The position numbers and the translations under genes are program-made. A model generated the notes under the pieces. The model saw only the letters and a list, made by a program, of their open reading frames with translations. It was not told where the DNA came from and did no database searches. Shown here piece after piece: positions 3,779 to 64,000 of a stretch of DNA of 64,000 bases. Each line of letters starts with the position of its first letter. Position 1 is the first letter of the stretch. The stretch is from Seramator thermalis (GTDB taxonomy: Bacteria; Bacteroidota; Bacteroidia; Bacteroidales; Dysgonomonadaceae), in NCBI RefSeq assembly GCF_004138125.1, contig NZ_RXHS01000010.1, forward strand, positions 62,001 through 126,000, read 5' to 3'.

Positions 3779-4357
3779 TTAATTGGAGTTGTTATTATTA
3801 ATTTGATTATTTCCACGTCCAAATCCTTGTCCGTGTCGGTAACCACTTCCGTTTCCGTTCCGCATTAAATTGTTGGCGCCATCCTCATAAAATAGCGGTT
3901 CGAAAGCGTTTTGTAGTTTTATGGCTTGTTCTTCATTGCAAATATTCTTCAATCCCAGATAAAAGGCATTGATCTGTTGTTTCAATTCGGCGTGATGTTC
4001 GCCGATTTTTATTGCCAGATCATTCACCTTCAGTGTATCAACATTCGATTTATTCAATTCGATAAACATTTCGCGTTTCATAGAGTCGATATCGAAAATC
4101 AGCATCCTTGCCGTTTCCTGAAAAGGGTGGTTCAATGCACGGAATTTATCCATCTGTATATCATCAAAACCCAGTTCTTTACGGAAAAATCGCCCATTAA
4201 TGGGGGTAGTGTTCGTTGAGGGAACTATAATTTCCCCATTCTCTGCTTTTTTCCGATAATCAAGATAGAGTATCGTCCCGATTGTCGTCAGATTAAGCAA
4301 AGCCAAAAGAACTATCACCCATACCAATATTTTGGTCGTTTTATTCATAAGCCGCAT
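3779..4357 (-). CDS. Spy/CpxP-like periplasmic protein, membrane anchored
   Basis: 192 residues. One N-terminal membrane helix (about residues 10-30) anchors a helical periplasmic domain of about 110 residues. The layout (ELGFDDIQMDKFRAL, then IDSMKREMF, then HHAELKQQINAFY) resembles the Spy/CpxP/ZraP family of periplasmic chaperones and metal-stress proteins. The C-terminal tail is Gly/Asn/Arg rich. The gene overlaps the end of the upstream anti-sigma-like gene: 17 bases from the first Met, 8 bases if translation starts at the Met three codons later. It is therefore translationally linked to it. A role in envelope or metal stress is inference from family and context. Confidence 0.72.
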   Translation of the reverse strand: MRLMNKTTKILVWVIVLLALLNLTTIGTILYLDYRKKAENGEIIVPSTNTTPINGRFFRKELGFDDIQMDKFRALNHPFQETARMLIFDIDSMKREMFIELNKSNVDTLKVNDLAIKIGEHHAELKQQINAFYLGLKNICNEEQAIKLQNAFEPLFYEDGANNLMRNGNGSGYRHGQGFGRGNNQINNNNSN

Positions 4358-4634
4358 CCATATAGTAGATTAGATTTTCTATCTGAGAGTCATTGATATT
4401 CAAAGCCATTCTGTCAATTCTATGTTCGTCGTAAATTTTCCCTATCGAAACACCCATTCTCATCACGAGTGCAATACTTGCAGCCACCACGAGCAGTCTG
4501 AAAAAGTAAACTCTTTTGTTTAACGGGGCATTCTCGGTCGCTATTTTCGACATGATCCTCGTTGACAGAAAAGGGTTCGATTCCACCTGCTTTTCTTTTT
4601 CGATTACTTTGTCTATGACATCTTCTGTTTTCAT
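4341..4634 (-). CDS. Probable anti-sigma factor, single membrane helix
   Basis: 97 residues from the Met at 4634; an upstream Met (4667) would add 11 residues (MNCLTNTTILK) that do not look conserved. The N-terminal half (about 50 residues) is soluble and charged, one membrane helix follows (FFRLLVVAASIALVMRM), then a short periplasmic tail. The gene lies 44 bases after the ECF sigma gene and overlaps the Spy-like gene. Size, topology and position suggest an anti-sigma factor. No ZAS-type His/Cys motif is present, so this is a context call. Confidence 0.6.
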   Translation of the reverse strand: MKTEDVIDKVIEKEKQVESNPFLSTRIMSKIATENAPLNKRVYFFRLLVVAASIALVMRMGVSIGKIYDEHRIDRMALNINDSQIENLIYYMDAAYE

Positions 4635-5765: not shown

Positions 5766-5988
5766 GACTCTTGTGGCTTTGCCCCAAACCCTACATACTT
5801 TTTTGCCTTGATGCAAAAAAGTATGCAAAAAAAATCAAGACTGCATCTCCTCATCGACCCGATAGCTGCTTGTTCGCTAAAAGACAAATAACTCACCGCC
5901 TTGCGGCGGCTCAAACAGCTTGTCTTTTGCCTGACGGCACGCTCTCTGCGCAGATCGGGTGCCCCGATGAGGAGATGAGGTCGGGACA
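5766..5988. repeat. Element A, copy 2 (different apex hairpin)
   Basis: Same design as copy 1. Its outer arms CATCTCCTCATCG (5844-5856) and CGATGAGGAGATG (5965-5977) pair perfectly. The apex differs: CCGCCTTGCGGCGG replaces the palindrome CGTCAGCTGACG of copies 1 and 3, so the sequence changes but self-complementarity is kept. Confidence 0.8.
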
Positions 5989-6295: not shown

Positions 6296-6516
6296 ATTCT
6301 TGGGGCTTTGCCCCAAACCCCACATACTTTTTGCCTTGATGCAAAAAAGTATGCAAAAAAGATCAAGACTGCATCTCCTCATTGACCCGACAGCTGCTTG
6401 TTCGCTAAAAGACAAATAACTCTCCGTCAGCTGACGGATCAAACAGCTTGTCTTTTGCCTGACGGCACGCTCGCTGCGCAGATCGGGTGCCCCGATGAAG
6501 AGATGAGGTCGGGACA
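6296..6516. repeat. Element A, copy 3
   Basis: About 220 bp, close to copy 1, with the same CGTCAGCTGACG apex. It is the A half of the third composite unit. The right arm reads CGATGAAGAGATG, as in copy 1. Confidence 0.8.
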
Positions 6517-7012: not shown

Positions 7013-7350
7013 TTTATTTGCCACGAAGGCTCAAAGACGCGAAGTTGGCTTCGTCCTCAGAATATCATAACCCCTGTGCTGCCCGGCGGCACGCTCTCTG
7101 CGCAGATCGGGTGCCCCGATGAGGAGATGAGGGCGGGAAAGTACCGGAGAATGGTTAATGAGAAAAGAAATGAGGGAGGGAACGGGTTATCCGTAATTCA
7201 TGAGGCAACCTCAATTTTTATCTACCCACACTATTTCACATAGAGCCACATTTTATTGGAGGTTGGAGATTGGAGATTGCGGGTTGGTGTTCGATCCAAA
7301 AAAAGAGACAAATTTTGAAAGGGTGGCGTGTCTATTAAAAAATTATGATG

Positions 7351-17445: not shown

Positions 17446-18177
17446 ATGACTAAACTTAGTGTAAATATTAACAAGATTGCAACATTGCGCAATTCTCGGG
17501 GAGGAAATCTTCCCGATGTCTGCCAGGTTGCAGTAGATTGTCAATTGTTTGGCGCAGATGGAATTACAGTACATCCGCGTCCTGACGAAAGGCATATTCG
17601 TCAAAAAGATGTTTTCGATTTGCAATCGAGGATTAGTACCGAATTTAACATCGAAGGCAACCCCACTCCCGAATTTATCGATCTCATCAAGCGGATAAGG
17701 CCGACTCAGGTGACGTTGGTGCCGGATGCACACGATGCCATCACATCCAATACCGGTTGGGATACGGTTCATAATCGCGAATTTTTATCCGATGTCGTGA
17801 ACGAATTTCAGGCTATCGGCATCCGAACTTCCATTTTTGTGAATGCCGATCTTGAAATGATACAGGGCGCATCGGCGATTGGTACAGACCGTATCGAACT
17901 CTACACAGGGCCTTACGCCGAAATGTTCCCTCGCGATAGGGAAACGGCCGTTGCGCCTTTTGTGGAAGCGGCTACCCTCGCCAAAAAACTGGGGCTGGGT
18001 GTAAATGCCGGACACGATTTGAATCTGCAAAATCTAAACTATCTCTATGTGAATATTCCCTGGCTCAAAGAGGTATCCATCGGGCATGCATTGATTTGTG
18101 ACGCACTTTATCTCGGCCTCGAAAAAACAATAAAAGCGTATAAAAATTGTTTAAAACTCCCCGAAGATCAGGCATAA
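17446..18177 (+). CDS. pdxJ: Pyridoxine 5'-phosphate synthase PdxJ
   Basis: 243 residues from the ATG at 17446; an in-frame TTG 15 bases upstream is less likely because [18 protein letters not shown] is the normal N-terminus. Family motifs: [43 protein letters not shown] and [13 protein letters not shown]. It condenses 1-deoxyxylulose 5-phosphate with aminoacetone phosphate to make pyridoxine phosphate. It lies upstream of the exbB-exbD-tonB genes, a common Bacteroidales order. Confidence 0.96.
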
Positions 18178-18248
18178 CCATTATAAGTTGCTATCTTTAC
18201 GTATCCTTTTTTGTGGAACTTGGATAAAGAAAACGAACATAAATTCAG

Positions 18249-18956
18249 ATGAAATTGCTACAAATAACACCTGCGGTTTCGGACTCGCTGCAACAACTGC
18301 AACAGGGTGTACCCGACGTCGATATTTCCTCAACCACTATAAATGCATTCGATCTTGCGCTGAAAGGTGGTTGGCTCATGATCATATTGCTTATCCTGCT
18401 GCTTTTGTCAGTTTATGTACTCATCGAGCGCCTGTTGGTTCTTCGCGATGCCGGAAAGGAAGATGATTCTTTCATGAATCGAATCAAAGATTATATCCAT
18501 GAAGGTAAGATAGATTCGGCACAGGCTCTATGCAAAAAAACCGATACCCCTTCCGCGAGAATGGTCGAAAAAGGTATTTCGCGTCTGGGTCGGCCTATGA
18601 GCGATATTACCCAAGCCATCGAAAATGCGGGAAATATAGAAATTTCGAAACTTGAAAAGGGTTTGCCTTTGCTTGCTACAACCGCTGCCGGAGCGCCCAT
18701 GATCGGCTTTTTGGGTACGGTTACCGGTATGGTAAAGGCTTTTATGAGTATGGCTAATGCAGGGGCTAACGTAGATGTAACTCACCTTTCAACCGGGATA
18801 TACGAAGCGCTCATCACCACCGTGGGAGGACTGATTGTCGGCATTATTGCTCTTTTTGCCTACAACTACCTTACTACTCAAATAAAAGGCATCGTAAACA
18901 AGATGGAGATGCGCATCATGGAGTTCATGGATATTCTGAACGAACCGGCCGTTTAA
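18249..18956 (+). CDS. exbB: ExbB/TolQ-type proton channel protein
   Basis: 235 residues with three membrane segments. The MotA/TolQ/ExbB domain is seen in LLATTAAGAPMIGFLGTVTGMVKAF and ISTGIYEALITTVGGLIVG-like stretches near residues 140-200. With ExbD it forms the inner-membrane channel that uses the proton gradient to drive TonB. The N-terminal extension before helix 1 is exposed outside the cytoplasm. First gene of exbB-exbD-tonB (gaps of 11 and about 31 bases). Confidence 0.93.
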   Translation: MKLLQITPAVSDSLQQLQQGVPDVDISSTTINAFDLALKGGWLMIILLILLLLSVYVLIERLLVLRDAGKEDDSFMNRIKDYIHEGKIDSAQALCKKTDTPSARMVEKGISRLGRPMSDITQAIENAGNIEISKLEKGLPLLATTAAGAPMIGFLGTVTGMVKAFMSMANAGANVDVTHLSTGIYEALITTVGGLIVGIIALFAYNYLTTQIKGIVNKMEMRIMEFMDILNEPAV

Positions 18957-18967
18957 AAAAAATAGTT

Positions 18968-19375
18968 ATGGCATTAAAACAGCGATTCAATATTGAACCA
19001 AATTTCAGCATGGCATCCATGACAGATGTAATTTTTCTGTTGCTGATATTTTTCATGATCACTTCAACTATCGTTGTGCCCAATTCCATAAAAGTACTTC
19101 TCCCCAAATCGCAGCAACAGGCTCAAGCCAAACCGCTAACGCGTGTAACTATCGACAAAAATCTCAATTTTTATGTAGCTAATGGCAACGAGACCGAACG
19201 CCAAGTTCCCTTCGAAGCCATTACGCCGTTTCTCAAATCGGCTTATTCGGCCGATCCCAATATTTTTGTTGCACTTTATGCCGATGAAGAAGTTCCGTAT
19301 CGTGAAATTGTTCGCGTGTTGGATATAGCCAACCAAAACAAATTTAAAATGGTGCTCATGACGAGACCCAAGTGA
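18968..19375 (+). CDS. exbD: ExbD/TolR-type biopolymer transport protein
   Basis: 135 residues. A short cytoplasmic N-terminus, then one membrane helix with the conserved Asp of the proton path (MTDVIFLLLIFFMITSTIV), then a periplasmic domain (TRVTIDKNLNFYVANG, VPYREIVRVLDIANQN). It is the partner of the preceding ExbB. Only one ExbD is present in this cluster, while many Bacteroidota have two. Confidence 0.93.
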   Translation: MALKQRFNIEPNFSMASMTDVIFLLLIFFMITSTIVVPNSIKVLLPKSQQQAQAKPLTRVTIDKNLNFYVANGNETERQVPFEAITPFLKSAYSADPNIFVALYADEEVPYREIVRVLDIANQNKFKMVLMTRPK

Positions 19376-53014: not shown

Positions 53015-55207
53015 ATGGCCGAAAAAGGTACATCAACATTCAAACAGTCCTACAAACAGCTTTATTCGTTTCTTCGCAAGAAAATGAATAGAGCAGAGGT
53101 GACGAAGCTTAAAAACATTGTCGAAAAATCGGTACTCTCGGCATTGGAAAGATCCGAAACCGATGCATTCGAAAAGTTGTGGGCCGAAATTCGCACGGCT
53201 ATCACGGCTATCGAAGAGTTGAATGTGCGACAACCCGAAGTTTGTGCCATCCTGCTCTACCATCCTATTCTGCGAGGAGATTACTCTATGGAGGAGGCCG
53301 CAAAATCGTTTGGAGAAGAGACTTCCATCATTTTGCGCGGGATTGAAAAAATCAACGAATTCGGCGATAAAAAAGCTGCGGTGGAATCGGAAAACTACAT
53401 CAAGTTACTGCTATCGATGGCAGAAGATATCAGGGTAGTTTTCATTATTATTGCCCAACATTTGCGACAGATGCGCGAAGCCAAAAATTTGGATAACGCT
53501 GCGCGCTTGGCCCTTTCGGTGGAATCCACCTATCTGTATGCGCCGCTGGCACATCGAATGGGTTTGTATTCCATCAAATCGGAGCTTGAAGACCTTTCGC
53601 TCAAATATACCGATCGGAAGACGTACGACTTCATCGCTCACAAACTCAATGAAACCAAGCGTTCGCGCGACCGGTATATTCAGGAATTTATCGAACCGTT
53701 AAAGTCCCGCCTCGATCAGACAGGATTGAAGTACGAGATAAAGGGGCGTACCAAATCGATACATTCCATCAACAACAAGCTCAAAAAACAGCAGGTAGAA
53801 TTCGAAGGAATATATGACCTGTTTGCCATCCGCATTATCCTCGATGCCCCGATAGAACAGGAAAAGGCACAATGCTGGCAGGTTTATTCTATCGTTACCG
53901 ATATGTATCAGCCTAATCCCAAGCGATTGAAAGATTGGCTTTCCATCCCCAAAAGCAATGGATACGAGTCGCTGCATATTACCGTGCTGGGTCCCGAATC
54001 GAAATGGGTGGAGGTGCAAATTCGCACGCGCCGCATGGATGAAATTGCCGAACACGGCTTGGCTGCACATTGGAAATATAAGGGAGTGAAAGAGGAAAGC
54101 GAATTTGACGGGTGGCTCAATTCGCTGCGCGAGTCACTTGAAGACAAGGATGTTGAGCTCAAGGAAAAATTGGTGGATTTTCGTCTTGATCTTTACGATG
54201 AGGAAATTTTCGTTTTCACGCCCAAAGGAGATCTTATTCGATTGCCCAAAGGTGCCACGGTGCTCGATTTTGCCTTTGCCATCCACTCCAAACTGGGCGC
54301 AAGTTGCGTTTCGGGCAACGTCAACGGCAAGAATGTCCCCATTAAATATGTTCTCAAAAGCGGCGATCAGGTTTCCATCAACACGTCCTCGCATCAGTCT
54401 CCCAAACAAGATTGGCTCAACATTGTGGTAACCTCGAAAGCAAAGAGCAAGATTCGACAACTGCTGAAAGAGGAAGCCGCCAAACAGGCAGATTTGGCTA
54501 AAGAAATGCTTGCGCGCCGCATGAAAAACCGCAAAATAGAGATGGATGACGGCATTTTCATGCAGCTTATCAAAAAACTGAAATACAAAACAGCAACCGA
54601 TTTTTATGCCGATATCGCTTCCGAAAAAATAGATGCCAATTGGGTTATCGATCGCTATGTGGAACTCGAAAATCGGGATGCGGCTTCTTATAACACTGTG
54701 AACACGGCGAGCGCCGAAAATTTTGTTCTCAATCCCGAACGAGTTTCGGATGAACAGGACGAACTCATCATCGATCAGAATCTTACGGGAATCGAATACA
54801 AACTGGCCAAATGTTGCAATCCGATTTTCGGAGACGAGATTTTTGGATTTGTTTCTTCCAACGGCATTAAAATACATCGCGTCAACTGTCCGAATGCCGA
54901 AAATATGTTTTCGCGGTTTGGATACCGCATCGTTAAAGCCCGCTGGTCGGGGAAATCGAGCGGCACTTCAAATTATACCACTATTTTAAGGGTAATCGGA
55001 AACGATCAGATTAATATTGTGTCCAACCTTATGTCCATTATTTCGAAAGAGGCGGACGTGAAAATGCGTTCGATCAGCATCGATTCCAACGATGGACTGT
55101 TTCAGGGGAATATCTCTGTTTCATTGGCAAATACATCCATCCTCGAGCAACTTATCCGCAAACTGAGTGCCGTGAAAGGCGTAAAATCGGTTAGTCGTCT
55201 CAATTGA
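53015..55207 (+). CDS. relA: RelA/SpoT-family (p)ppGpp synthetase with degenerate hydrolase domain
   Basis: 730 residues. The synthetase domain is well kept (GRTKSIHSINNKL, FEGIYDLFAIRIIL, GYESLHITVLGP, VEVQIRTRRMDEIAEHGLAAHWKYK). TGS domain (FVFTPKGDLIRLPKGATVLDFAF), a Cys-containing zinc-finger region (YKLAKCCNPIFGDEIFGF) and a C-terminal ACT domain follow. The N-terminal HD hydrolase domain lacks its signature: where HDxxED is expected the text reads LLYHPILRGDY, and the later AD is AQ (IIIAQHLRQM). It is therefore probably a synthetase only, like RelA of gamma-proteobacteria. A second, SpoT-like enzyme is expected elsewhere. Confidence 0.9.
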   Translation: MAEKGTSTFKQSYKQLYSFLRKKMNRAEVTKLKNIVEKSVLSALERSETDAFEKLWAEIRTAITAIEELNVRQPEVCAILLYHPILRGDYSMEEAAKSFGEETSIILRGIEKINEFGDKKAAVESENYIKLLLSMAEDIRVVFIIIAQHLRQMREAKNLDNAARLALSVESTYLYAPLAHRMGLYSIKSELEDLSLKYTDRKTYDFIAHKLNETKRSRDRYIQEFIEPLKSRLDQTGLKYEIKGRTKSIHSINNKLKKQQVEFEGIYDLFAIRIILDAPIEQEKAQCWQVYSIVTDMYQPNPKRLKDWLSIPKSNGYESLHITVLGPESKWVEVQIRTRRMDEIAEHGLAAHWKYKGVKEESEFDGWLNSLRESLEDKDVELKEKLVDFRLDLYDEEIFVFTPKGDLIRLPKGATVLDFAFAIHSKLGASCVSGNVNGKNVPIKYVLKSGDQVSINTSSHQSPKQDWLNIVVTSKAKSKIRQLLKEEAAKQADLAKEMLARRMKNRKIEMDDGIFMQLIKKLKYKTATDFYADIASEKIDANWVIDRYVELENRDAASYNTVNTASAENFVLNPERVSDEQDELIIDQNLTGIEYKLAKCCNPIFGDEIFGFVSSNGIKIHRVNCPNAENMFSRFGYRIVKARWSGKSSGTSNYTTILRVIGNDQINIVSNLMSIISKEADVKMRSISIDSNDGLFQGNISVSLANTSILEQLIRKLSAVKGVKSVSRLN

Positions 55208-55610
55208 ACGGTTTCACTGCTTTTTTTGCAGGCGCGGCCTTGCTATCGATTTGTGGAAGCAAGTCCTGCACATAACTTCGTTCGAAATCTTTGGGGCGAA
55301 GAATCTCGCCGTCGGCAGCAATCAAATCAAGATCGATCACCACTTTACCCTTTGCTTTGTCCTCCGGGGTTCTGCCCAAACGTTTTTCGATCTCTTTCAA
55401 CTGTGCATTAATTTCGTCGGCACCGGCCGAATGATAGGCGACGGCAAGAACATTCACAAACGGGCGCTTGTAATGGTCGCTATGAGGCTTTGTCGTCAAA
55501 GCTTCCGTAAAAACAATTTCCGGAAACAGATTTTCGAGCATTTGTCGGGCTTCGGTCAAGTTCGACCGCGCCTGAAAATTTGAACTGATGCTTAACAAAT
55601 AGGCGTGCAT
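55200..55610 (-). CDS. FolK-like (HPPK) protein, short and divergent
   Basis: 136 residues. It looks like 6-hydroxymethyl-7,8-dihydropterin pyrophosphokinase: the ATP/metal motif VVIDLDLIA is intact and LGRTPEDKAKGK precedes it, and FVNVLAVAY corresponds to the FxNxV block. The usual GSN start is SISSN, the Arg/Trp loop before IDLDL is lost, and the family is normally about 20 residues longer. It may be a working short form or a homologue with another role. It converges on relA and overlaps its end by 8 bases. Confidence 0.7.
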   Translation of the reverse strand: MHAYLLSISSNFQARSNLTEARQMLENLFPEIVFTEALTTKPHSDHYKRPFVNVLAVAYHSAGADEINAQLKEIEKRLGRTPEDKAKGKVVIDLDLIAADGEILRPKDFERSYVQDLLPQIDSKAAPAKKAVKPFN

Positions 55611-55955
55611 ATCTACGATTGAAACGACAAAGATACTCCGGATTTTTCATGAAATGTATCCCTGTTTTGAAAAATTCAGCCGTCGGGTTGAATGCCAAAG
55701 CTATTTGTTAAATAGATTTTACTCGCTCTGCGAATAGTAATATCGCTCCACGTAGAAATAGTTTATCTTCCTTGTTATACGAATCAATCGCTTAAACCTA
55801 ACAAGTTTTCAAAACTTGTTAGGTTTTTAGTTAACTAATAAAAATAACTGCAAATATTCACCTAATATCACATTCTTTTCAATTCGTAAATTTGTTCACG
55901 TTCATTTATGTTTATGTATAGATATTAAGCCGAAATGTCTCTTTTATATTGATTT
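55611..55955. other. Gene-free region with a perfect 33-bp palindrome
   Basis: No gene is seen. The stretch is moderately AT-rich and contains the palindrome at 55794-55826. It leads into the 43-bp degenerate array. Confidence 0.6.
55794..55826. repeat. Perfect 16-bp-arm palindrome (AAACCTAACAAGTTTT type)
   Basis: AAACCTAACAAGTTTT, one central C, and the exact reverse complement. It resembles the hairpin at 2510-2540 in plan. A short T run follows on the plus strand, but no plus-strand gene ends nearby (relA ended 590 bases before), so it is more likely an interspersed palindrome than a terminator. Confidence 0.75.
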
Positions 55956-56640
55956 TCACACTTTCTAACGCGATGAGTAGGTTTTGCGTCACAACATTTG
56001 TCACTTTCCATTTTGCGGACCGACTTTTGACCGCGAACAAAATGTACTTTCCAAAATGACCAACGGCATTTTACCGCAGATAAAGGTCACTTTCCGTATT
56101 GAGGAACGACTTTTCATCCACTACTATGCTTAGTTCGTTAACAAAACATGATATATTTCTTCTTTTTCGATAACTATTTTTAAGGGAGAGTGGCTTTTGA
56201 CCGCGGTCAAAAGCCGTTCCTCGCGGCGACGAGTAGGTTTTATCCGTGAACAAAGGTCGTTCGTTTTAACGTCGAATAACCTTTTTCGGATGACAACGAT
56301 CGTTCCTCATTTTGCGGAGTGAACATTTCAAACAGACATTGGTCGTTCCGCGCAATGCGTAGTAAGCAAATCGGCAAAAAAAGGTCGTTCCGCATCCTGC
56401 GGAAAGGGTGTTTTACCGATAAAAACCTGTTCCGCAAAGTGAAAAGTAGGTTTTGTCTCTGCACAAAAGCCGTTCCTCGTGATAACAAACGATAAATTTT
56501 CGTGTGAAATTACCGTTCCTTTAACAGTTCATCGACCTTTTCGGGCAGCGATTGGTTGTTCGGCAAAACGATGAGTAAGAATTTCGCCGGGGTGAATGGA
56601 AGAATGAAGGAAAGGAAGAAAAAATTTGTGTTTGAAGATG
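55956..56640. repeat. Degenerate tandem array, period 42-44 bp, about 16 units
   Basis: Units start at about 55956, 55999, 56043, 56085, 56128, 56170, 56213, 56255, 56298, 56341, 56383, 56426, 56469, 56512, 56555 and 56599; the lengths are 42, 43 or 44. From 56213 to 56554 nearly every unit opens with a variant of GGTCGTTCC. A rough consensus has two dyads: GTTCCGCA..TGCGGAAC in the first half and TTTTGaCCGcGaaCAAAA in the second, often with GAGTAGG between. Sequence identity between units is low but the period is strict. No open frame with a credible start crosses it. The function is unknown. Confidence 0.8.
56192..56215. repeat. Perfect 24-bp palindrome within the array
   Basis: The half-site GGCTTTTGACCG (56192-56203) is followed directly by its exact reverse complement (56204-56215). 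It falls on the junction of the sixth and seventh array units and is the most perfect copy of the array's second dyad. Confidence 0.85.
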
Positions 56641-56773
56641 GACCCTTTTTGAACGGAAATAACGAAATCCCTTTTTTCAAAAGAAATAACTATGTTTGCT
56701 TATGTAGCCGGCGAATCGGAAGAACCGTTTAAAAGCAATTTAAATATCGATTAAACAGGATAGATATATATAT

Positions 56774-56804
56774 AAAAATGCCTCCTGATTGATGGACAAG
56801 AGGC
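56774..56804 (-). terminator. Terminator of the tracrRNA
   Basis: An 8-bp stem with one G-U pair (GCCTCTTG against CAGGAGGC), followed on the minus strand by ATTTTT and AT-rich DNA. It also forms the 3' hairpin of the mature tracrRNA. Confidence 0.85.
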
Positions 56805-56858
56805 AACCCAAATGTTTTCACAACGGAATCATCCTTATTGTGATTTGCTTTCAAATTT
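56774..56858 (-). ncRNA. tracrRNA: tracrRNA of the type II-C CRISPR-Cas system
   Basis: Read on the minus strand, divergent from cas9. The 5' part is an anti-repeat, AATTTGAAAGCAAATCACAA (complement of 56838-56857), which is complementary to the start of the known Bacteroides type II-C CRISPR repeat (TTGTGATTTGCTTTCAAATT, recalled from memory). Next is a nexus-like hairpin AAGGA/TCCGTT with loop TGAT, then GTGAAAACATTTGGGTT, then the terminator hairpin GCCTCTTG/CAGGAGGC (56780-56804) followed by ATTTTT. A -7 element lies seven bases upstream. Only the exact 5' end is uncertain. Confidence 0.85.
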
Positions 56859-56864
56859 ATGCTT

Positions 56865-56872
56865 CAAAGATA
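56865..56872 (-). promoter_or_regulatory. -7 element TATCTTTG for the tracrRNA
   Basis: Exact TAnnTTTG match on the minus strand. Transcription would start near 56858, right at the first base of the anti-repeat. The -33 is weak: only T-rich DNA about 20 bases upstream. Confidence 0.6.
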
Positions 56873-56916
56873 AAGCTTTTTTCTTATAGAAAAAATATTT
56901 AACACAAAAAAATGAT

Positions 56917-56924
56917 TATATTTA
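56917..56924 (+). promoter_or_regulatory. Likely -7 element (TATATTTA) for cas9
   Basis: Seven of eight bases fit TAnnTTTG, with the last G replaced by A. It is 49 bases upstream of the cas9 ATG and 45 bases away from the divergent tracrRNA -7 element. The region between them is extremely AT-rich. Confidence 0.4.
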
Positions 56925-56972
56925 CAGCCGAATATAATGAATTGAAAATTAATATTATATAAAATATAAACT

Positions 56973-59900
56973 ATGAAGACCGTATTAGGCCTCGATTTAG
57001 GCACAAATTCAATTGGTTGGGCGTTGGTGAAAGAGGCAGAAAATGAAAGCGAAAAATCCGAAATTATTAGACTTGGCGTACGAGTAAATCCTTTGACAGT
57101 GGATGAATTGCAAAATTTTGAAAAAGGGAAAAGCATTACCACGAATGCAGATAGAACCTTAAAGAGAAGTATGCGTCGCAATTTGCAGCGCTACAAATTA
57201 AGGCGAGAAAACTTAATCAAAATTCTTAAAGAAAATAATTTCATCACGGATGAAACCATTTTATCGGAAAATGGCAATTTCACTACTTTCGAAACTTATC
57301 GTTTGAGAGCTAAAGCAGCTACGGAAGAAATAACACTTGAACAATTTGCCCGCGTACTATTAATGATCAACAAAAAACGTGGCTATAAAAGCAGCAGAAA
57401 AGCCAAAGGCAATGAAGATGGAGCTTTAATTGACGGAATGGAGGTTGCTAAAAAACTTTATGACGAACAATTGACTCCGGGTCAGTATTGCTTGGAACTA
57501 CTTCAAAATGGGAAAAAGTATCTCCCTGATTTTTATCGTTCCGACTTACTACAGGAATTTGACAGGATTTTTGAGAAACAAATGACTTTCTATCCGGAAG
57601 TGCTTACGAAAGAATTACAGGAGGAGCTACGTGGTAAAAAACGAGATGCCGTATGGGCAATCTGTTCGAAAGCATTTAAAGAAAAAGGGTTTGAATTAGT
57701 TGGCACCAAACGTCAAGGAAATGCAGGGGATCAAAAAATCGAAAATTTTGTATGGAGAGCCAAAGGTTTAACCGAAAAGCTGGATTTAGAGCAATTTGTA
57801 ATTGTGATACAGCAAATAAACATTCAGATTAATAGTTCGAGTGGATATTTGGGCGCAATAAGCGACCGCAGCAAAGAGTTATACTTCCATAAGATAACAA
57901 ATCCTGATGGAACTACACGAGCTCAAACAGTTGGAGAATATCAAATGGAAATATTGAAGAATAATCCCAATGCAAGTTTACGAAATATGGTATTTTATCG
58001 TCAGGATTATTTGGATGAATTTAATACGATTTGGGAAACACAAGCCGCATTTCATAAGGAATTAACGGCTGAATTGAAACGGGAAATTCGCGATGTCGTG
58101 ATTTTTTATCAACGTCCGTTGAAAAGTCAGAAAAGTTTGATCAGCTTTTGCGAATTTGAAAGTCGAAAAATCGAAGTTGAAATGAATGGCAAAAAGAAAA
58201 TCCAGACGATTGGTAGCAGGGTAATTCCACGCTCTTCTCCATTGTTTCAGGAATTTAAGATTTGGCAAATTTTGAATAATATTGAAGTATTTGGCAAAGG
58301 ACGAAAAAACAAGAAACAAAAAGAAAAATCCCTTTTTAGCGATATGGAAGACCCTTTGCAAATTGGAGGAAGGAGAGAATTATATCAGGAGGAAAAAGAA
58401 CTATTGGCAGAGGAGCTTTCGATAAGAAAAGAGTTGAAAAAGACAGATGTATTAAAATTATTGTTTGATAACCCGAAAGAACTGGATATGAATTTTAATT
58501 CCATTCAGGGAAATTTAACCCAAGCAGTATTTTTTGAAGCATACAAGCGGATTATTGAATTAAGCGGGCACGAAATAGAGATTGAAAAAAAATCTGCCAA
58601 AGAGATTCTAAAAGCTGTTGAAGAGGTTTTCAGTGTATTAGGTTTTAATACAGATATTTTGTATTTTGATTCGAACAAGATGCTTGACAAACAACCGATG
58701 TATAAATTATGGCATTTGTTATACTCTTTTGAAGGAGATAGCTCTAAAACAGGAAATCAAAACTTAATTGATAAGATTACAGAACTTTGCGGATTTGATA
58801 AAGAATTTTCTAAAATTTTGGCGAATGTAACTTTTCAGGACGATTATGGTAGCCTTTCAACTAAAGCAATACGAAAAATATTACCTTATTTGAAAGCAGG
58901 TAACAAATATGATGTTGCATGCCAATATGCAGGATATCGACATTCAGCGAGCTCTTTGAACAAGGAAGAAATAAACACTAAAAACTACAAAGAGCGTCTT
59001 AATATTTTGCCGAAAAATTCATTGCGGAATCCGGTAGTGGAAAAAATCCTTAACCAAATGATCAATGTAATTAATTTGATTATTGACACTTATGGTAAAC
59101 CGGATGAAATACGGATCGAATTGGCTCGTGAATTGAAAAAGAATGCAAAAGAAAGGGAAGAACTAACCAAATCAATTGCCGATACAACCAAATTGCATGA
59201 GCAATATAAAGAGACTTTGTATAGACCACCATTCAATCTCTCTTATATTAGCCACAACGATATTGTTCGTTATAAGCTTTATGAGGAATTGAAAGAAAAT
59301 GGATATAAAACATTGTATTCCAATACATATATATCTCCTGCAGCATTATTCAGCGGAGATTTTGATATTGAGCATATTATTCCTCAGTCGCGTCTTTTTG
59401 ACGATTCTTTTTCCAATAAAACATTGGAACTTAGAAGCATTAATATTGAAAAAGGGAATAGAACTGCTTACGATTTTATCAAAGAAAAATATGGCGAATC
59501 AGGCGAAGAAAACAACTTGGACAATTATCTTTCCCGCATTGAGGATTTGTACAAAAAAGGTATCCTTTCACGAGCTAAATACAACAAATTAAAAATGCAG
59601 GAAAAAGATATTCCCGAAGGTTTTATTAATCGAGATTTAGCTAATTCACAATACATTGCAAAATATGCCAAAACGATGTTGGGCGAATTGGTTAAATTTG
59701 TGGTATCTACAACAGGCTCGATTACAGATAGATTACGTGAGGATTGGCAGTTGGTTGACGTAATGAAAGAATTGAATTGGGAAAAATATTATAATCTTGG
59801 TTTGACAGAAGAATTTATCAACGAAGAAGGACAGAGAATCCGTAAAATTAAGGACTGGACGAAACGAAATGATCATCGGCATCACGCAATGGATGCGCTT

Positions 59901-61283
59901 ACTGTTGCTTTTACCAAACGCCAATTTATTCAGTATCTCAACAACCTTAATGCTCGACGACTTGATGAGAGTCAAGGCATTTCAAATGCAGAAAAAGAAG
60001 AACAGGATAATTATGCCATTGGTGCCGAAGATGTTATTTTAAGTACGAGAGATGTACTGGGTATAGAAAAGAAATACTTATACCGCGATAACAAAAACAA
60101 ACTCCGTTTTGTCCCTCCCATACCGCTTGACGAATTCAGAGCAGAAGCAAAACGTCAGTTAGAAAACACATTGATTTCAATTAAGGCGAAAAATAAAGTA
60201 ACGACCAAAAATATCAATATAACGAAGAAAAAGGGCGGCGTAAATAAAAAAGAACAGTTAACACCTCGTGGACAGCTACACAACGAAACAGTTTACGGAA
60301 GCCATAAAGAATATGTAGTGAAAATAGAAACGGTTAATGCAAAATTCGATAACGAAAAAATTGCCACAGTAGCCAACCCTGCTTATCGAGTAGCTCTAAC
60401 TGAACGGTTGCAACAATTCAACAATGATCCGAAAAAAGCATTTACAGGGGGAAACGCTCTCTCAAAAAAGCCGATATGGTTGGACGAACTTCATACCAAA
60501 CAAGTTCCTGAAAAAGTTAAAACGGTGAGTTTTGAAATCGTCTATACTATTCGTAAGGATATATCACCTGATTTGAAGGTGGATAAGGTAATTGATAAAA
60601 AAATCAGACAAATACTCGAGAATCGATTGAAAGAGTTTGGCGGAAATGCCAAGCAGGCATTCTCCAATTTAGATGAAAATCCTATTTGGCTCAACAAGGA
60701 GAAAGGAATTTCCATAAAACGTGTTACAATTTATGGGGTGAATAATGTAGAATCATTGCATGACAAAAAGAATAAGGAAGGAAAATTGATTTTAGATGAA
60801 AATGGGAATAAGCAACCGGTTGATTTTGTAAATACTGGTAATAATCACCACGTCGCTATTTATCGAGATGCAGAGGGTAATTTGCAAGAAAAGGTTGTAT
60901 CGTTTTACGAAGCAGTAAACAGACGCAATCTCGGGTTACCTGTGATAGATAAAAATTATAAATCCGATGAAGGATGGGAATTTCTCTTCAGCATGAAACA
61001 AAACGAATATTTTGTATTCCCAAACGAAAAAACGGGATTTAATCCCAACGAAATAGACTTGCTCGATCCTGACAACTATTCGTTGATCAGCACGAACTTG
61101 TTTAGAGTTCAAAAAATTACAACAAAGGATTATACTTTCAGGCATCATTTAGAAACAAATGTTGAAAACAATAATCTATTAAAAGGGATTACATGGATTA
61201 GAACCGGATTAAATGGTTTGTCAAACATTGTAAAGATAAGGATAAATCATTTGGGTCAAATCGTTTCGGTAGGAGAATATTAA
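56973..61283 (+). CDS. cas9: CRISPR-associated endonuclease Cas9, type II-C
   Basis: 1436 residues, in the size class of Bacteroides Cas9. RuvC-I is VLGLDLGTNSIGWALV with Asp8. The Arg-rich bridge helix is SMRRNLQRYKLRRENLIK. RuvC-II is PDEIRIELARELK with Glu716, the HNH site is FDIEHIIPQSRLFDDSFSNK with His801, and RuvC-III is HHAMDALTVAF (970-980) with Asp974. All catalytic residues are kept, so both DNA strands should be cut. The last 400 residues are the PAM-interacting region. Base composition is lower in GC than the next genes. It heads an operon with a DUF6155-like gene, cas1, cas2 and two more genes; there is no csn2 or cas4. Confidence 0.97.
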   Translation: MKTVLGLDLGTNSIGWALVKEAENESEKSEIIRLGVRVNPLTVDELQNFEKGKSITTNADRTLKRSMRRNLQRYKLRRENLIKILKENNFITDETILSENGNFTTFETYRLRAKAATEEITLEQFARVLLMINKKRGYKSSRKAKGNEDGALIDGMEVAKKLYDEQLTPGQYCLELLQNGKKYLPDFYRSDLLQEFDRIFEKQMTFYPEVLTKELQEELRGKKRDAVWAICSKAFKEKGFELVGTKRQGNAGDQKIENFVWRAKGLTEKLDLEQFVIVIQQINIQINSSSGYLGAISDRSKELYFHKITNPDGTTRAQTVGEYQMEILKNNPNASLRNMVFYRQDYLDEFNTIWETQAAFHKELTAELKREIRDVVIFYQRPLKSQKSLISFCEFESRKIEVEMNGKKKIQTIGSRVIPRSSPLFQEFKIWQILNNIEVFGKGRKNKKQKEKSLFSDMEDPLQIGGRRELYQEEKELLAEELSIRKELKKTDVLKLLFDNPKELDMNFNSIQGNLTQAVFFEAYKRIIELSGHEIEIEKKSAKEILKAVEEVFSVLGFNTDILYFDSNKMLDKQPMYKLWHLLYSFEGDSSKTGNQNLIDKITELCGFDKEFSKILANVTFQDDYGSLSTKAIRKILPYLKAGNKYDVACQYAGYRHSASSLNKEEINTKNYKERLNILPKNSLRNPVVEKILNQMINVINLIIDTYGKPDEIRIELARELKKNAKEREELTKSIADTTKLHEQYKETLYRPPFNLSYISHNDIVRYKLYEELKENGYKTLYSNTYISPAALFSGDFDIEHIIPQSRLFDDSFSNKTLELRSINIEKGNRTAYDFIKEKYGESGEENNLDNYLSRIEDLYKKGILSRAKYNKLKMQEKDIPEGFINRDLANSQYIAKYAKTMLGELVKFVVSTTGSITDRLREDWQLVDVMKELNWEKYYNLGLTEEFINEEGQRIRKIKDWTKRNDHRHHAMDALTVAFTKRQFIQYLNNLNARRLDESQGISNAEKEEQDNYAIGAEDVILSTRDVLGIEKKYLYRDNKNKLRFVPPIPLDEFRAEAKRQLENTLISIKAKNKVTTKNINITKKKGGVNKKEQLTPRGQLHNETVYGSHKEYVVKIETVNAKFDNEKIATVANPAYRVALTERLQQFNNDPKKAFTGGNALSKKPIWLDELHTKQVPEKVKTVSFEIVYTIRKDISPDLKVDKVIDKKIRQILENRLKEFGGNAKQAFSNLDENPIWLNKEKGISIKRVTIYGVNNVESLHDKKNKEGKLILDENGNKQPVDFVNTGNNHHVAIYRDAEGNLQEKVVSFYEAVNRRNLGLPVIDKNYKSDEGWEFLFSMKQNEYFVFPNEKTGFNPNEIDLLDPDNYSLISTNLFRVQKITTKDYTFRHHLETNVENNNLLKGITWIRTGLNGLSNIVKIRINHLGQIVSVGEY

Positions 61284-61300
61284 TTCATAAAAATAAACTT

Positions 61301-61822
61301 ATGTCCAAATCAGCCTTAAAGAAAGAATTGCTCAAACTCACCAAAGAGCAATTGGTAGAGCAAATCCTCGATTTGTATGAAAAGAATAAATCGATAAAAG
61401 AGTTTTACGATTTTTATCTCAATCCACACAATGAAAAAGAGTTGGTGGAGAAGTACAAAAAGATCATTCGGAAAGAGTTCAATGTGGAAAGGCCTGAACG
61501 AGGCAGCGAGAAATTCTCGGTAGCCAAAAAAGCGATTTCAGAATTTAAAAGCTTGCAGCCTTCGCCCGAGGCTTTGGCTGATGTAATGCTCTATTTGCCC
61601 GAAAGTGCCTGCGAACTGACGTATTGTTACGGCGATTATTCCGAACAATTTTATGATTCGACGTACAACAACTACAAGGCCGCATTGGAGTTTATCGCAA
61701 AACACCATCTGCTGGATGAGTTCAAACTGCGTGCCGAGCAATGTGTCAAATGGGCTTCTCCCTGTGGATACGGTTTTGCAAATGATATTGCAGATATTTA
61801 TTATGAATTTTATCAAGATTAA
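61301..61822 (+). CDS. DUF6155-like protein within the cas operon
   Basis: 173 residues. The sequence is the DUF6155 type as I recall it: SALKKELLKLTKEQLVEQIL, then YDFYLNPHNEKELVEKYKKII, FSVAKKAISEFKSLQPSPEALADVMLYLPE, YKAALEFIAKHHLLDEFKLR and ASPCGYGFANDIADIYYEF. It is all-helical with no catalytic motif I can name. It lies between cas9 and cas1 with gaps of 17 and 15 bases, so it is part of the operon. In other Bacteroidota such proteins are usually outside CRISPR loci. A role in adaptation or in Cas9 control is possible but not shown. Confidence 0.72.
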   Translation: MSKSALKKELLKLTKEQLVEQILDLYEKNKSIKEFYDFYLNPHNEKELVEKYKKIIRKEFNVERPERGSEKFSVAKKAISEFKSLQPSPEALADVMLYLPESACELTYCYGDYSEQFYDSTYNNYKAALEFIAKHHLLDEFKLRAEQCVKWASPCGYGFANDIADIYYEFYQD

Positions 61823-61837
61823 AACGATTCTGAGTGT

Positions 61838-62773
61838 ATGATCAAGCGCACGCTCTATTTTGGCAATCCGGCTTATCTTTCGTTGAAAAAGGAGCAATTG
61901 GTCGTTCAACTGCCCGAAGTAGTCAAAAATGAAGATTTGCCCGAAAAAATGAAGCAGGAATCGGTTGTCACCATTCCCATCGAAGACATTGGCGTGGTGA
62001 TTCTCGACCACAAGCAAATTACGGTTACCCAAGGCTTGATGGAGAAACTACTTGAGAATAACTGTGCACTCATTACTTGCGACAGCAACCACATGCCTGT
62101 CGGACTGATGTTGCCTTTAGCGGGGAACACGATTCAAACGGAACGTTTCAGCGATCAAATCAATGCCTCCGTTCCACTAAAAAAGCAGCTTTGGCAGCAA
62201 ACCGTTCAAGCCAAAATCGAAAATCAGGCCTACGTGCTCGATAAAATGGCCGGAGGAGTCATTAAGAATATGAACGCTTGGGCGGCTGACGTTAAAAGTG
62301 GCGATCCCGACAATTACGAAGCTCGTGCCGCGGTGTATTATTGGGCAAATCTTTTTCCGAATATTCGAGGATTTTCCAGAAATCGGGATGGCGTTCCACC
62401 CAACAATCTGTTGAATTATGGTTATGCCGTTTTGCGTGCAGTGGTAGCCCGATCGCTTGTAGCAAGTGGATTGCTTCCGACGCTGGGCATTCATCATCGC
62501 AACAAATACAACGCCTATTGTTTGGCCGACGATGTGATGGAGCCTTACAGGCCATTTGTCGATCGCTTGGTTTTTGAAATCGTTGCCGAAAATGAAAATA
62601 TTGACGAAATAACACAACCTATGAAAACCCGATTATTGGGAATTCCGATTCTCGACGTAATGATCAACGGGCAACGAAGCCCGTTGATGGTCGCCGTGGG
62701 GCAAACCACGGCATCCCTCTATCACTGTTTTTCGGGAGAAATCCGAAAAATAAAATATCCTTCATTTACTTAA
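61838..62773 (+). CDS. cas1: CRISPR-associated integrase Cas1, type II
   Basis: 311 residues. An N-terminal beta-sheet domain (RTLYFGNPAYLSLKKEQLVV ... IPIEDIGVVILDHKQITVT) is followed by the helical catalytic domain. Metal ligands are seen in NYEARAAVYYW (Glu), LGIHHRNKYN (His) and LADDVMEPYRPFVDRL (Asp/Glu). With Cas2 it inserts new spacers at the leader end of the array. The gene starts 15 bases after the DUF6155-like gene. Confidence 0.96.
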   Translation: MIKRTLYFGNPAYLSLKKEQLVVQLPEVVKNEDLPEKMKQESVVTIPIEDIGVVILDHKQITVTQGLMEKLLENNCALITCDSNHMPVGLMLPLAGNTIQTERFSDQINASVPLKKQLWQQTVQAKIENQAYVLDKMAGGVIKNMNAWAADVKSGDPDNYEARAAVYYWANLFPNIRGFSRNRDGVPPNNLLNYGYAVLRAVVARSLVASGLLPTLGIHHRNKYNAYCLADDVMEPYRPFVDRLVFEIVAENENIDEITQPMKTRLLGIPILDVMINGQRSPLMVAVGQTTASLYHCFSGEIRKIKYPSFT

Positions 62774-62802
62774 AATGTCGATTTGGAGGATTAGGGGCAT
62801 TT

Positions 62803-63135
62803 ATGGAACGTTTTAGCGAATACAGAATTATGTGGGTTTTGGTTTTTTTCGACTTGCCGACCGAAACAAAAAAAGATCGGAAAACATACACCGATTTCAG
62901 GGATAAACTGATCAAAGACGGATTCACCATGTTTCAATTTTCCATTTACCTGCGTCATTGTGCCAGTGCAGAAAATGCACAGGTTCATATCCAACGGGTA
63001 AAAAAGAATTTGCCGCCCAAAGGGAATATAGGCATTTTGTGCATTACCGACAAGCAGTTTGGCAATATGGAACTGTTCGTTGGGAAAGAAGAGAAAAAAG
63101 TATCCACGCCCTATCAACAGTTGGAATTGTTTTAA
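62803..63135 (+). CDS. cas2: CRISPR-associated protein Cas2
   Basis: 110 residues. The ferredoxin-like fold begins with YRIMWVLVFFDLPTETKKDRKTYTDFRDKL (Asp in FFDLP), then FTMFQFSIYLRHCAS and IGILCITDKQFGNMELFVG. It forms the bridge of the Cas1-Cas2 integrase. The gap to cas1 is 29 bases. Its stop codon overlaps the ATG of the next gene (TAATG). Confidence 0.95.
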   Translation: MERFSEYRIMWVLVFFDLPTETKKDRKTYTDFRDKLIKDGFTMFQFSIYLRHCASAENAQVHIQRVKKNLPPKGNIGILCITDKQFGNMELFVGKEEKKVSTPYQQLELF

Positions 63136-63932
63136 TGAATATGGACAAAAAAGAATTGCTGAAAACTCACGAATTACTTTGTGAATCATACATTAAACTT
63201 ATGAACGACAAAGAAGTAATGTTGAATTTTACCAAACCGCAATTGGAATCGATGTATGCATCCAAAATTGGTGTATTGCAAATAGAGATTTTAAAACTGC
63301 AGCTCGAAATCAAAGCACTCAAACGCCAAATCGAAATGGCACAAGCCGAAATCAATCAAAACAAAGTTCCCAATTTCGATCAAATAGAAGCGGATATTGC
63401 CGGTCAACTTTTGGAAGCTCAAATGGAGATTATGTTCAAAACTTACGAATTGGAGGTGGCCAAACAATTTTTAAGTCATTTGGCCTCTCCCGACAAAAAA
63501 GTCGATATAAGAAAATTTTTCAGGCGATTGGCCAAGGCATTGCATCCGGATGTGAATCCCGAATTATCGTCGTCGAAAAAAGAGATTTGGAACAAAGTGC
63601 TTTGGGCCTACGAGCATGGCGATATGGAACAACTGAAAGCATTGGAAATCATTTATGCAAAAGAAATTTCGGAATCGGAAAATGCCAAAAACGAAATGAG
63701 TGAAGATGAACTCAACTTGTTAAATCACACACTTTCAGAAGGAATCGGAGTGCTTGAACAACAAATAACAGAGCTCAACAACTCCTTTCCGTTTTCGATG
63801 CGGGAACAAATCTTAAATGAAGATTGGATAAATGGAGAAAGATCGAGATTGCAATTACAAATGGAAGAATTGAAAACATATGGCGAAGAACAAAAACAAA
63901 AATACGCTCTAATAAAAGCCGCTTATGAATAA
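63135..63932 (+). CDS. J-domain-like protein with coiled coils, fused to the cas operon
   Basis: 265 residues from the ATG at 63135, which overlaps the cas2 stop by one base; a Met two codons later is also possible. The N-terminal 115 residues are mainly coiled coil (IGVLQIEILKLQLEIKALKRQ). Residues about 124-165 resemble the core of a J domain: helix II IRKFFRRLAKAL, the HPD motif at 137-139, then helix III EIWNKVLWAYEHG. Coiled coil continues to the end. HPD is the Hsp70-activating tripeptide, so DnaK may be a partner. I do not know this family as part of any CRISPR system. Confidence 0.75.
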   Translation: MNMDKKELLKTHELLCESYIKLMNDKEVMLNFTKPQLESMYASKIGVLQIEILKLQLEIKALKRQIEMAQAEINQNKVPNFDQIEADIAGQLLEAQMEIMFKTYELEVAKQFLSHLASPDKKVDIRKFFRRLAKALHPDVNPELSSSKKEIWNKVLWAYEHGDMEQLKALEIIYAKEISESENAKNEMSEDELNLLNHTLSEGIGVLEQQITELNNSFPFSMREQILNEDWINGERSRLQLQMEELKTYGEEQKQKYALIKAAYE

Positions 63933-64000
63933 CGATGAAAGCTTAATTAAAGTTGATTCTGCGCTTTTGGCAGCATTAAGCTCGCATGCCATCCAATTCA
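63925..64000 (+). CDS. Unidentified gene, 5' part only (cut by window end)
   Basis: Starts at ATG 63925, overlapping the end of the J-domain gene by 8 bases, and is open to the window edge (25 codons: MNNDESLIKVDSALL, then AALSSHAIQF). Too short to assign. The overlap suggests it is translationally coupled to the J-domain gene, so the operon goes on beyond position 64,000. Confidence 0.55.
   Translation, partial: MNNDESLIKVDSALLAALSSHAIQF

Follow-up and report, generated by a model that had tools for sequence, protein, structure and literature searches.

The 64,000 nucleotides of Seramator thermalis DNA analysed here (the window, positions 62001 to 126000 of contig C38 in an assembly of 2.98 Mb and 39 contigs) contain the cas genes of a CRISPR-Cas locus. 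Between cas9 and a folK-like gene lies an element built largely of periodic DNA. Its parts, and the features around it, are listed in Table 1. The window also carries an SprA gene, which points to Bacteroidota. The stretch on the minus strand next to cas9 is likely the tracrRNA. The CRISPR array has near-identical repeats, with at least 22 copies among those listed, and unique spacers; it is followed by a partial repeat and then, by eye, an IS3-type transposase-like gene.

Table 1. Features in and around the periodic element (window positions unless a contig is named; the strand is left empty where none applies)
Feature	Position	Strand	Remarks
folK-like gene (HPPK)	55200-55610	-	on the other side of the element from cas9
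Flanking palindrome	55794-55826		16-bp arms; immediately left of the element
AT-rich leader	55830-55955		non-periodic; common to ten full copies; mean majority identity 0.90 in the alignment
Left array part	55956-56126		four units of 42-43 bp, starting at 55956, 55998, 56041 and 56084
Middle	56127-56212		barely recognisable unit (56127-56169), then an invariant tract and the best A dyad
Right array part	56213-56575		units starting at 56213, 56255, 56298, 56341, 56383, 56426, 56469 and 56512; partial unit at 56555
tracrRNA-like stretch	56770-56890	-	would pair with part of the 47-bp CRISPR repeat; a terminator-like hairpin follows (both by eye); outside the element
cas9 (HNH_4, RuvC_III)	56973-61283	+	followed by the DUF6155 gene, cas1 and cas2
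DUF6155 gene	61301-61822	+	between cas9 and cas1
CRISPR array	C38, ~126.4-128.1 kb (L062, ~17447-19100)		47-bp repeats, 76-77 bp spacing; just outside the window

An earlier, sequence-only reading of this DNA had described a strictly periodic array at 55956-56640, and autocorrelation with shuffled controls bears this out. Identity peaks at a lag of 43 bp (0.436, z 10.2), with further peaks at lags 86 (z 6.5) and 129 (z 4.7), and the mean over lags 42-44 was reached in 0 of 1000 dinucleotide shuffles. When the window was scanned in 400-bp stretches, the best four all fell inside this array, again with a lag of 43. TRF at a score of 40 reported no array there. The GTTCC-type openings claimed for the units from 56213 to 56512 are present (the one at 56255 reads GTTCG in the window copy), and the perfect stems claimed were found at 56388-56404 and 56192-56215.

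Other parts of that description had to be amended. The tandem run with its constant period stands, but the count of about 16 units does not: the fit gives 14 A-type and 14 B-type dyad centres between 55969 and 56545.5, that is, 14 units, several of which fit poorly. The bounds move as well. Alignment with the flanks places the start of the part common to all copies at about 55830; on the right the copies end raggedly, the window copy diverging from the others past about 56575. The two dyads noted in each unit exist, but they are not two separate features. The unit is a palindrome repeated in tandem, and any such arrangement yields both. Finally, the decay of the sequence and the preservation of the period are both real, but the entire diverged array has been copied as a block to eight places. 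The units therefore diverged long ago, and the copies inherited their differences.

A scan for dyad centres across ten full copies, eight from this genome and two from a congener, revealed the underlying design. A-type dyads (TTTTG..CAAAA) alternate with B-type dyads (GGTCRYTCC..GGARYGACC), their centres mostly 21.5 bp apart. Of the 27 steps in the resulting lattice, 24 measure 21.5 bp, two 20.5 and one 19.5. Watson-Crick complementarity averages 0.478 on the lattice; at centres elsewhere it is 0.25, and shifting the register by half a base lowers it to 0.28-0.31. Part of this contrast is selected, because the 28 centres were placed manually, guided by the scan of that very alignment. The array is a single module in alternating orientation, in other words a series of tandem palindromes; in the right part the module reads AMAAAGGTCRYTCC. 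The left part has several column blocks with alternative versions among the copies. In the middle, a 17-bp tract (56169-56185) is invariant across the ten full copies and runs into the best A dyad, which is centred at 56203.5 and has perfect 12-bp arms in the window copy. The majority sequence of the leader in the ten aligned copies rises from 16% GC at the left end to 34%.

A search of the whole assembly found eight full-length copies of a block of about 750 bp, the window copy and seven others. Each consists of the AT-rich leader followed by about 14 diverged units in fixed order. The copies are colinear with the query over 376-381 of its 381 bases, at 80-84% identity, and the DNA outside is mostly unrelated, with some shared stretches. 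All eight are intergenic in the ORF maps. According to these maps and Pfam, the window copy has folK and cas9 as its neighbours; the other pairs are a helicase and a DUF6261 gene; a class I tRNA synthetase (W/Y) and a gene without assignment; a GTPase and creD; a YjeF-Carb_kinase gene and a tRNA-Leu; a HAD hydrolase and arginine deiminase; a class I tRNA synthetase (I/L/M/V) and namZ; and a 208-aa gene without assignment and a pyridine nucleotide-disulphide oxidoreductase. Convergent, divergent and tandem contexts all occur. Since the contexts differ and follow no orientation rule, we rejected control of a fixed neighbour gene, and a fixed orientation relative to GC skew was rejected as well. 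Isolated modules are not enriched outside the arrays (9 of 42 matches, against 16 control matches genome-wide) and so give no sign of a single-site regulon.

The block shows no coding signal. Variable columns are spread evenly over the three frames (47, 48 and 49) without codon-position bias, which led us to reject a protein-coding repeat. Antisense frames of 102 aa in the C6 copy and 93 aa in the C1 copy have no Pfam match. Between the approximate ends of the copies, terminal inverted repeats exceed the 95% shuffle score in none of the eight, and a MITE bounded by such repeats was therefore rejected. An IS5-like end pattern had no match around the eight copies or in the window.

It is doubtful whether the palindrome immediately left of the window copy belongs to the element. 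By eye, palindromes that resemble it without being identical occur near the same spot in the C6, C23, C11 and C35 copies. A pattern search for its shorter form (55798-55822, up to two mismatches) gave four places, in the window, at C6:31441-31465, at C32:295525 and at C34:5666; two of the four lie directly left of an element copy.

Which positions of the module are conserved? Variability among the ten copies depends on module phase (chi2 86.5, 20 df, p 3e-10), in a count that takes related copies as independent and uses a lattice fitted on the same alignment. The effect holds within columns that share a majority base (p 0.0014 for A, 0.0001 for C, 0.037 for G and 0.010 for T). Phases 5, 14 and 18 vary least, in 2, 5 and 4 of 28 columns respectively (11 of 84 together), and the greatest variability is found at the A centre, in phases 0-2 (62 of 83 columns). 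The more constrained part of the unit would therefore span about 33 bp around the B dyad, with the A centre as a variable linker of about 10 bp; as we read the module profile, it is about AAAGGTCRYTCCKCA N3 TGMGGARYGACCTTT. Inside this proposed site, phases 10-12, 16 and 17 are still variable in 43-61% of columns. Columns that match the consensus are variable less often than others (36% versus 51%; rank test p 1.6e-4), and phases of higher information vary less (rho -0.60, p 0.004); within phases, the advantage of consensus-matching columns reaches only z -1.78. In each of the ten copies, the power of AAA and TTT tracts at 10.7 bp exceeds the 95% level of shuffles. Because a 14.25-bp harmonic is as strong, helical phasing of these tracts is compatible with the data, not proven by them.

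Comparison with the congener, the other member of the genus compared, shows how the copies have evolved. Element matches occur there at six loci, making both genomes of the genus positive. Four sites of our genome are occupied, as judged from at least one flank: the window site, C33, C1 and C35, of which the C1-site copy is split into two by a contig break and the C35-site copy is decayed. The C6 site is empty: on congener contig C124, 17 bp lie between the aligned flanks, with no obvious target-site duplication by eye and with uncertain edges. These two cases mean that the C6 and C35 copies are dispensable in the congener. A locus on congener contig C75 (L044) has the left flank of C23 on one side and the right flank of C11 on the other, pointing either to misassembly or to copies that have recombined. 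The C22 site allows no comparison, its neighbours being different in the congener, and the C11 left flank lies near a contig end, with the element absent from the 505 bp there. Copies cluster by species and not by locus, except for the window copy, which stands apart from the other seven; over the array it is 77-82% identical to them and 81-84% identical to the congener copies. On the strength of these alignments, we take the element to be under concerted evolution at largely fixed sites.

Length is nearly constant. Orthologous stretches of the element differ by 0-1 nt in five of five comparisons, whereas flanking intergenic stretches differ by 1-16 nt in seven of seven. Stiff gap costs give 556 substitutions to 7 indels in the element against 300 to 28 in the flanks (Fisher p 2e-7), in a comparison that pairs the C23 copy with the C75 locus of the congener, which shares only its left flank, counts C1 twice (as two pieces), splits the C1 tRNA flank in two, and leaves out both C11 versus C75 and the C11 right flank (0 indels, 44 substitutions). 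With permissive gap costs the contrast in indels vanishes: element pairs have 3.1-11.2 substitutions per indel and flanks 2.5-44. For this reason our main evidence is the net difference in length, a measure less sensitive to gap costs than indel tallies are. Within our genome, the 28 pairs of the eight copies contain seven gaps, all in pairs with the C23 copy, which lacks one base. Repeat number is constant, in that no gap longer than a single base interrupts the alignment of the ten full copies over the array, the ragged right end excluded. That length is kept almost exactly while about 5-23% of bases differ between copies points to selection on spacing.

Searches beyond the genus found no convincing relatives. 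By blastn (E<=0.001) the element occurs in 2 of 41 genomes, our own included. A covariance model of 151 positions (R1), for which we used an RNAalifold structure that includes pairs off the lattice, placed all 22 matches listed for our genome within the eight copies. In the family, 4 of 101 genomes had matches at E<=0.01: the two genus members and two genomes of another genus (G010, E 3.5e-4; G081, E 5.3e-4), whose matches we judged to be chance, as they show no 43-bp period and, by eye, a terminator-like hairpin. Across the order, 1 of 393 genomes matched at E<=1e-4, our own, and the 392 others had none. The family-wide search scored 30 candidates per genome under strict filters and the order-wide search few, recovering seven of the eight copies in our genome, so that weak relatives could be missed by both. 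A core pattern of 22 fixed bases had no exact match in genome_contigs or viral_contigs, collections from which records very near our own genome are possibly excluded. As far as these searches reach, the element is genus-restricted, dispersed, non-coding and intergenic.

What, then, is the element? Its position suggests a part of the CRISPR-Cas locus, such as a decayed array, a leader or the tracrRNA. It lies between folK and cas9, an arrangement kept in the congener, and, like a CRISPR array, it is periodic. The link to CRISPR did not survive a look at the other copies. Only the window copy adjoins cas genes; the seven others sit beside unrelated genes, away from these. Its units are diverged, contiguous and palindromic, unlike near-identical repeats that are spaced 76-77 bp apart by unique spacers, and the likely anti-repeat, identified by eye, is separate from it. 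A CRISPR origin has next to no probability; dispersed copies and separate anti-repeat together rule out a CRISPR remnant or tracrRNA. Proximity to cas genes does not by itself make a periodic array a CRISPR feature. We also consider it improbable that the element is a transcribed multi-hairpin RNA, although several measurements lean that way. Fold energies lie below those of 40 shuffles each (z -2.6 to -9.6 on the plus strand and -1.8 to -9.0 on the minus strand), but both strands fold alike, as palindromes would. A check for covariation between dyad arms gave a divided answer. The covariation score was reached by none of 500 shuffles and exceeds every slid version, cells changed on both sides outnumber those in nearly all shuffles (21 versus 11.4 and 33 versus 24.4), and compensatory changes occur at the 56203.5 stem, the sole dyad at which the copies show double-sided changes in three pairs. 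The number of pairs with double changes, however, is not above shuffles (10 versus 8.5; 12 versus 15.6), and partners across B match each other no better than modules paired at random (z -0.4 to -0.6). Selected hairpins should make neighbours match better, so the latter result disfavours hairpin selection; A partners exceed random pairing marginally (z 1.8-2.3 for the arms, 0.6 for the full module and 1.3 for the arms without the best dyad). The excess of G-T over A-C pairs at the dyads is somewhat larger than expected (1.36 and 1.61 versus 1.15), which speaks weakly for a plus-strand RNA, and there are five terminator-like hairpins against a shuffle mean of 1.1, three of them inside the array. 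A Bacteroidota promoter pattern has no exact match in ten copies; in nine of the ten, its one-mismatch matches on the plus strand fall within the array, at positions that differ between copies, and sigma-70-like sites fall below shuffle level. No Rfam family matched (Rfam 15, E<=1, 55600-64000), and we rejected membership in one.

A stronger competitor is a repeat without any function. A MITE-like or minisatellite-bearing sequence may have spread in the ancestor of the genus and then been homogenised by gene conversion, the lattice being a fossil of the tandem amplification of a palindrome. We regard this as possible, if doubtful. Confinement to one genus agrees with it, as do multiple intergenic copies that group by species (the window copy excepted), the empty site and the decayed copy in the congener, and the possible exchange of flanks between the C23 and C11 sites. 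Parallels are described in Porphyromonas gingivalis, where the 23-nt BrickBuilt and 41-nt 464/PgRS tandem repeats form dispersed intergenic elements (PMC4596501). They have some ten to twenty dispersed intergenic copies, a narrow host range, a non-repeat leader and internal tandem repeats predicted as stem-loops, at sites largely common to related genomes and sometimes empty; BrickBuilt has 1 to 22.8 repeats, expanding and contracting between strains (PMC4596501). The statement in the sequence-only reading that no element of this kind has been described was thus too strong, though several features that define these families failed here. Like them, our element is dispersed between genes in several copies, each with a leader and tandem repeats inside. 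It differs in its 43-bp palindromic unit (PgRS being compared by description only, not by sequence), in units that are strongly diverged and yet in fixed order, and in two respects that keep us from filing it with them: no terminal inverted repeats were found, and the ten full copies contain the same units. The same facts weigh against a passive repeat. The unit set is identical over the aligned part of the eight copies here and the two full congener copies, length is near-constant, constraint is specific to phase, and none of the eight copies has terminal inverted repeats above shuffle level. REP and BIME sequences, the other nearest kind that we found in the literature (none nearer was among the papers listed), are regularly spaced intergenic palindromic repeats of alternating orientation described as protein-binding sites (PMC2817692, PMC3733652). 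The element has palindromic modules, alternating orientation and regular spacing, and our genome has two Y1_Tnp matches (C38:17.8 kb and C7:37.6 kb). Still, it is a long block of fixed length at eight loci, not a sequence present in more than 100 copies; modules outside the arrays are below control, and neither Y1_Tnp gene adjoins an element copy, leaving no linked transposase (RAYT). Dispersal by a REP-associated Y1 transposase is very unlikely.

We favour a role at the level of DNA over both the passive fossil and the RNA. REP and BIME sequences are bound by gyrase, IHF or Pol I, and iteron and centromere-type arrays are helically phased tandem protein-binding sites. The element resembles the latter in its putative helically phased tandem sites and differs from them in occurring as eight chromosomal intergenic copies; among the flanking proteins scanned, none matched a Pfam partition or replication-initiation family. 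The reading that we prefer, with a probability of about 0.48, is a genus-restricted dispersed intergenic element carrying a DNA-level array of putative palindromic protein-binding sites in helical phase. The suggestion of binding sites on one face of the DNA had already been made in the sequence-only reading, and it gains from the 24 of 27 steps of 21.5 bp, the near-constant length and the phase-specific constraint. A unit of 43 bp makes about four helical turns, and dyad centres mostly follow one another at 21.5 bp, so that the putative sites would face the same side. A dimeric or oligomeric DNA-binding protein, perhaps nucleoid-associated, repressor-like or gyrase-like, would occupy the 14 or so tandem 43-bp palindromes, probably cooperatively, and a local nucleoprotein structure would form at eight places in the genome. 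Its role would be architectural and not the control of neighbouring genes.

Several observations favour such a binding array. The dyad lattice holds only in exact register. If half-sites are read independently of each other, module partners should not covary across B, and they do not. The mixture of convergent, divergent and tandem contexts speaks against a promoter or operator that serves one particular gene. Other observations count against it: the isolated modules that are not enriched, the empty and decayed congener copies, the indel contrast that is absent with permissive gap costs, the variable phases 10-12, 16 and 17 within the 33-bp site, and the 14.25-bp A-tract harmonic. The excess of terminator-like hairpins would also be explained by a role at the level of transcription. 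We conclude that the element is a lineage-specific intergenic repeat with unusual evidence of spacing constraint. The nearest described intergenic repeats change their repeat number, as BrickBuilt does, or are numerous, as REP sequences are, whereas this one keeps its length almost exactly. A bolder version, which we think somewhat unlikely, is a chromosome-organising element of new design: eight phased runs of about 14 palindromic operators each, of near-constant length and homogenised by gene conversion, at which a putative oligomeric protein would fold, insulate or tether the nucleoid in one genus. If a protein does bind, the genome would offer a naturally phased lattice of operators, replicated eight times and useful for studies of nucleoid architecture.

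Other dispersed repeats, unlike the 43-bp array, lie in the window at about 171-295, 676-728, 5865-5986, 6390-6514 and 7157-7242, and in locus L026 at about 4220-4358. They also occur at many places in the congener.
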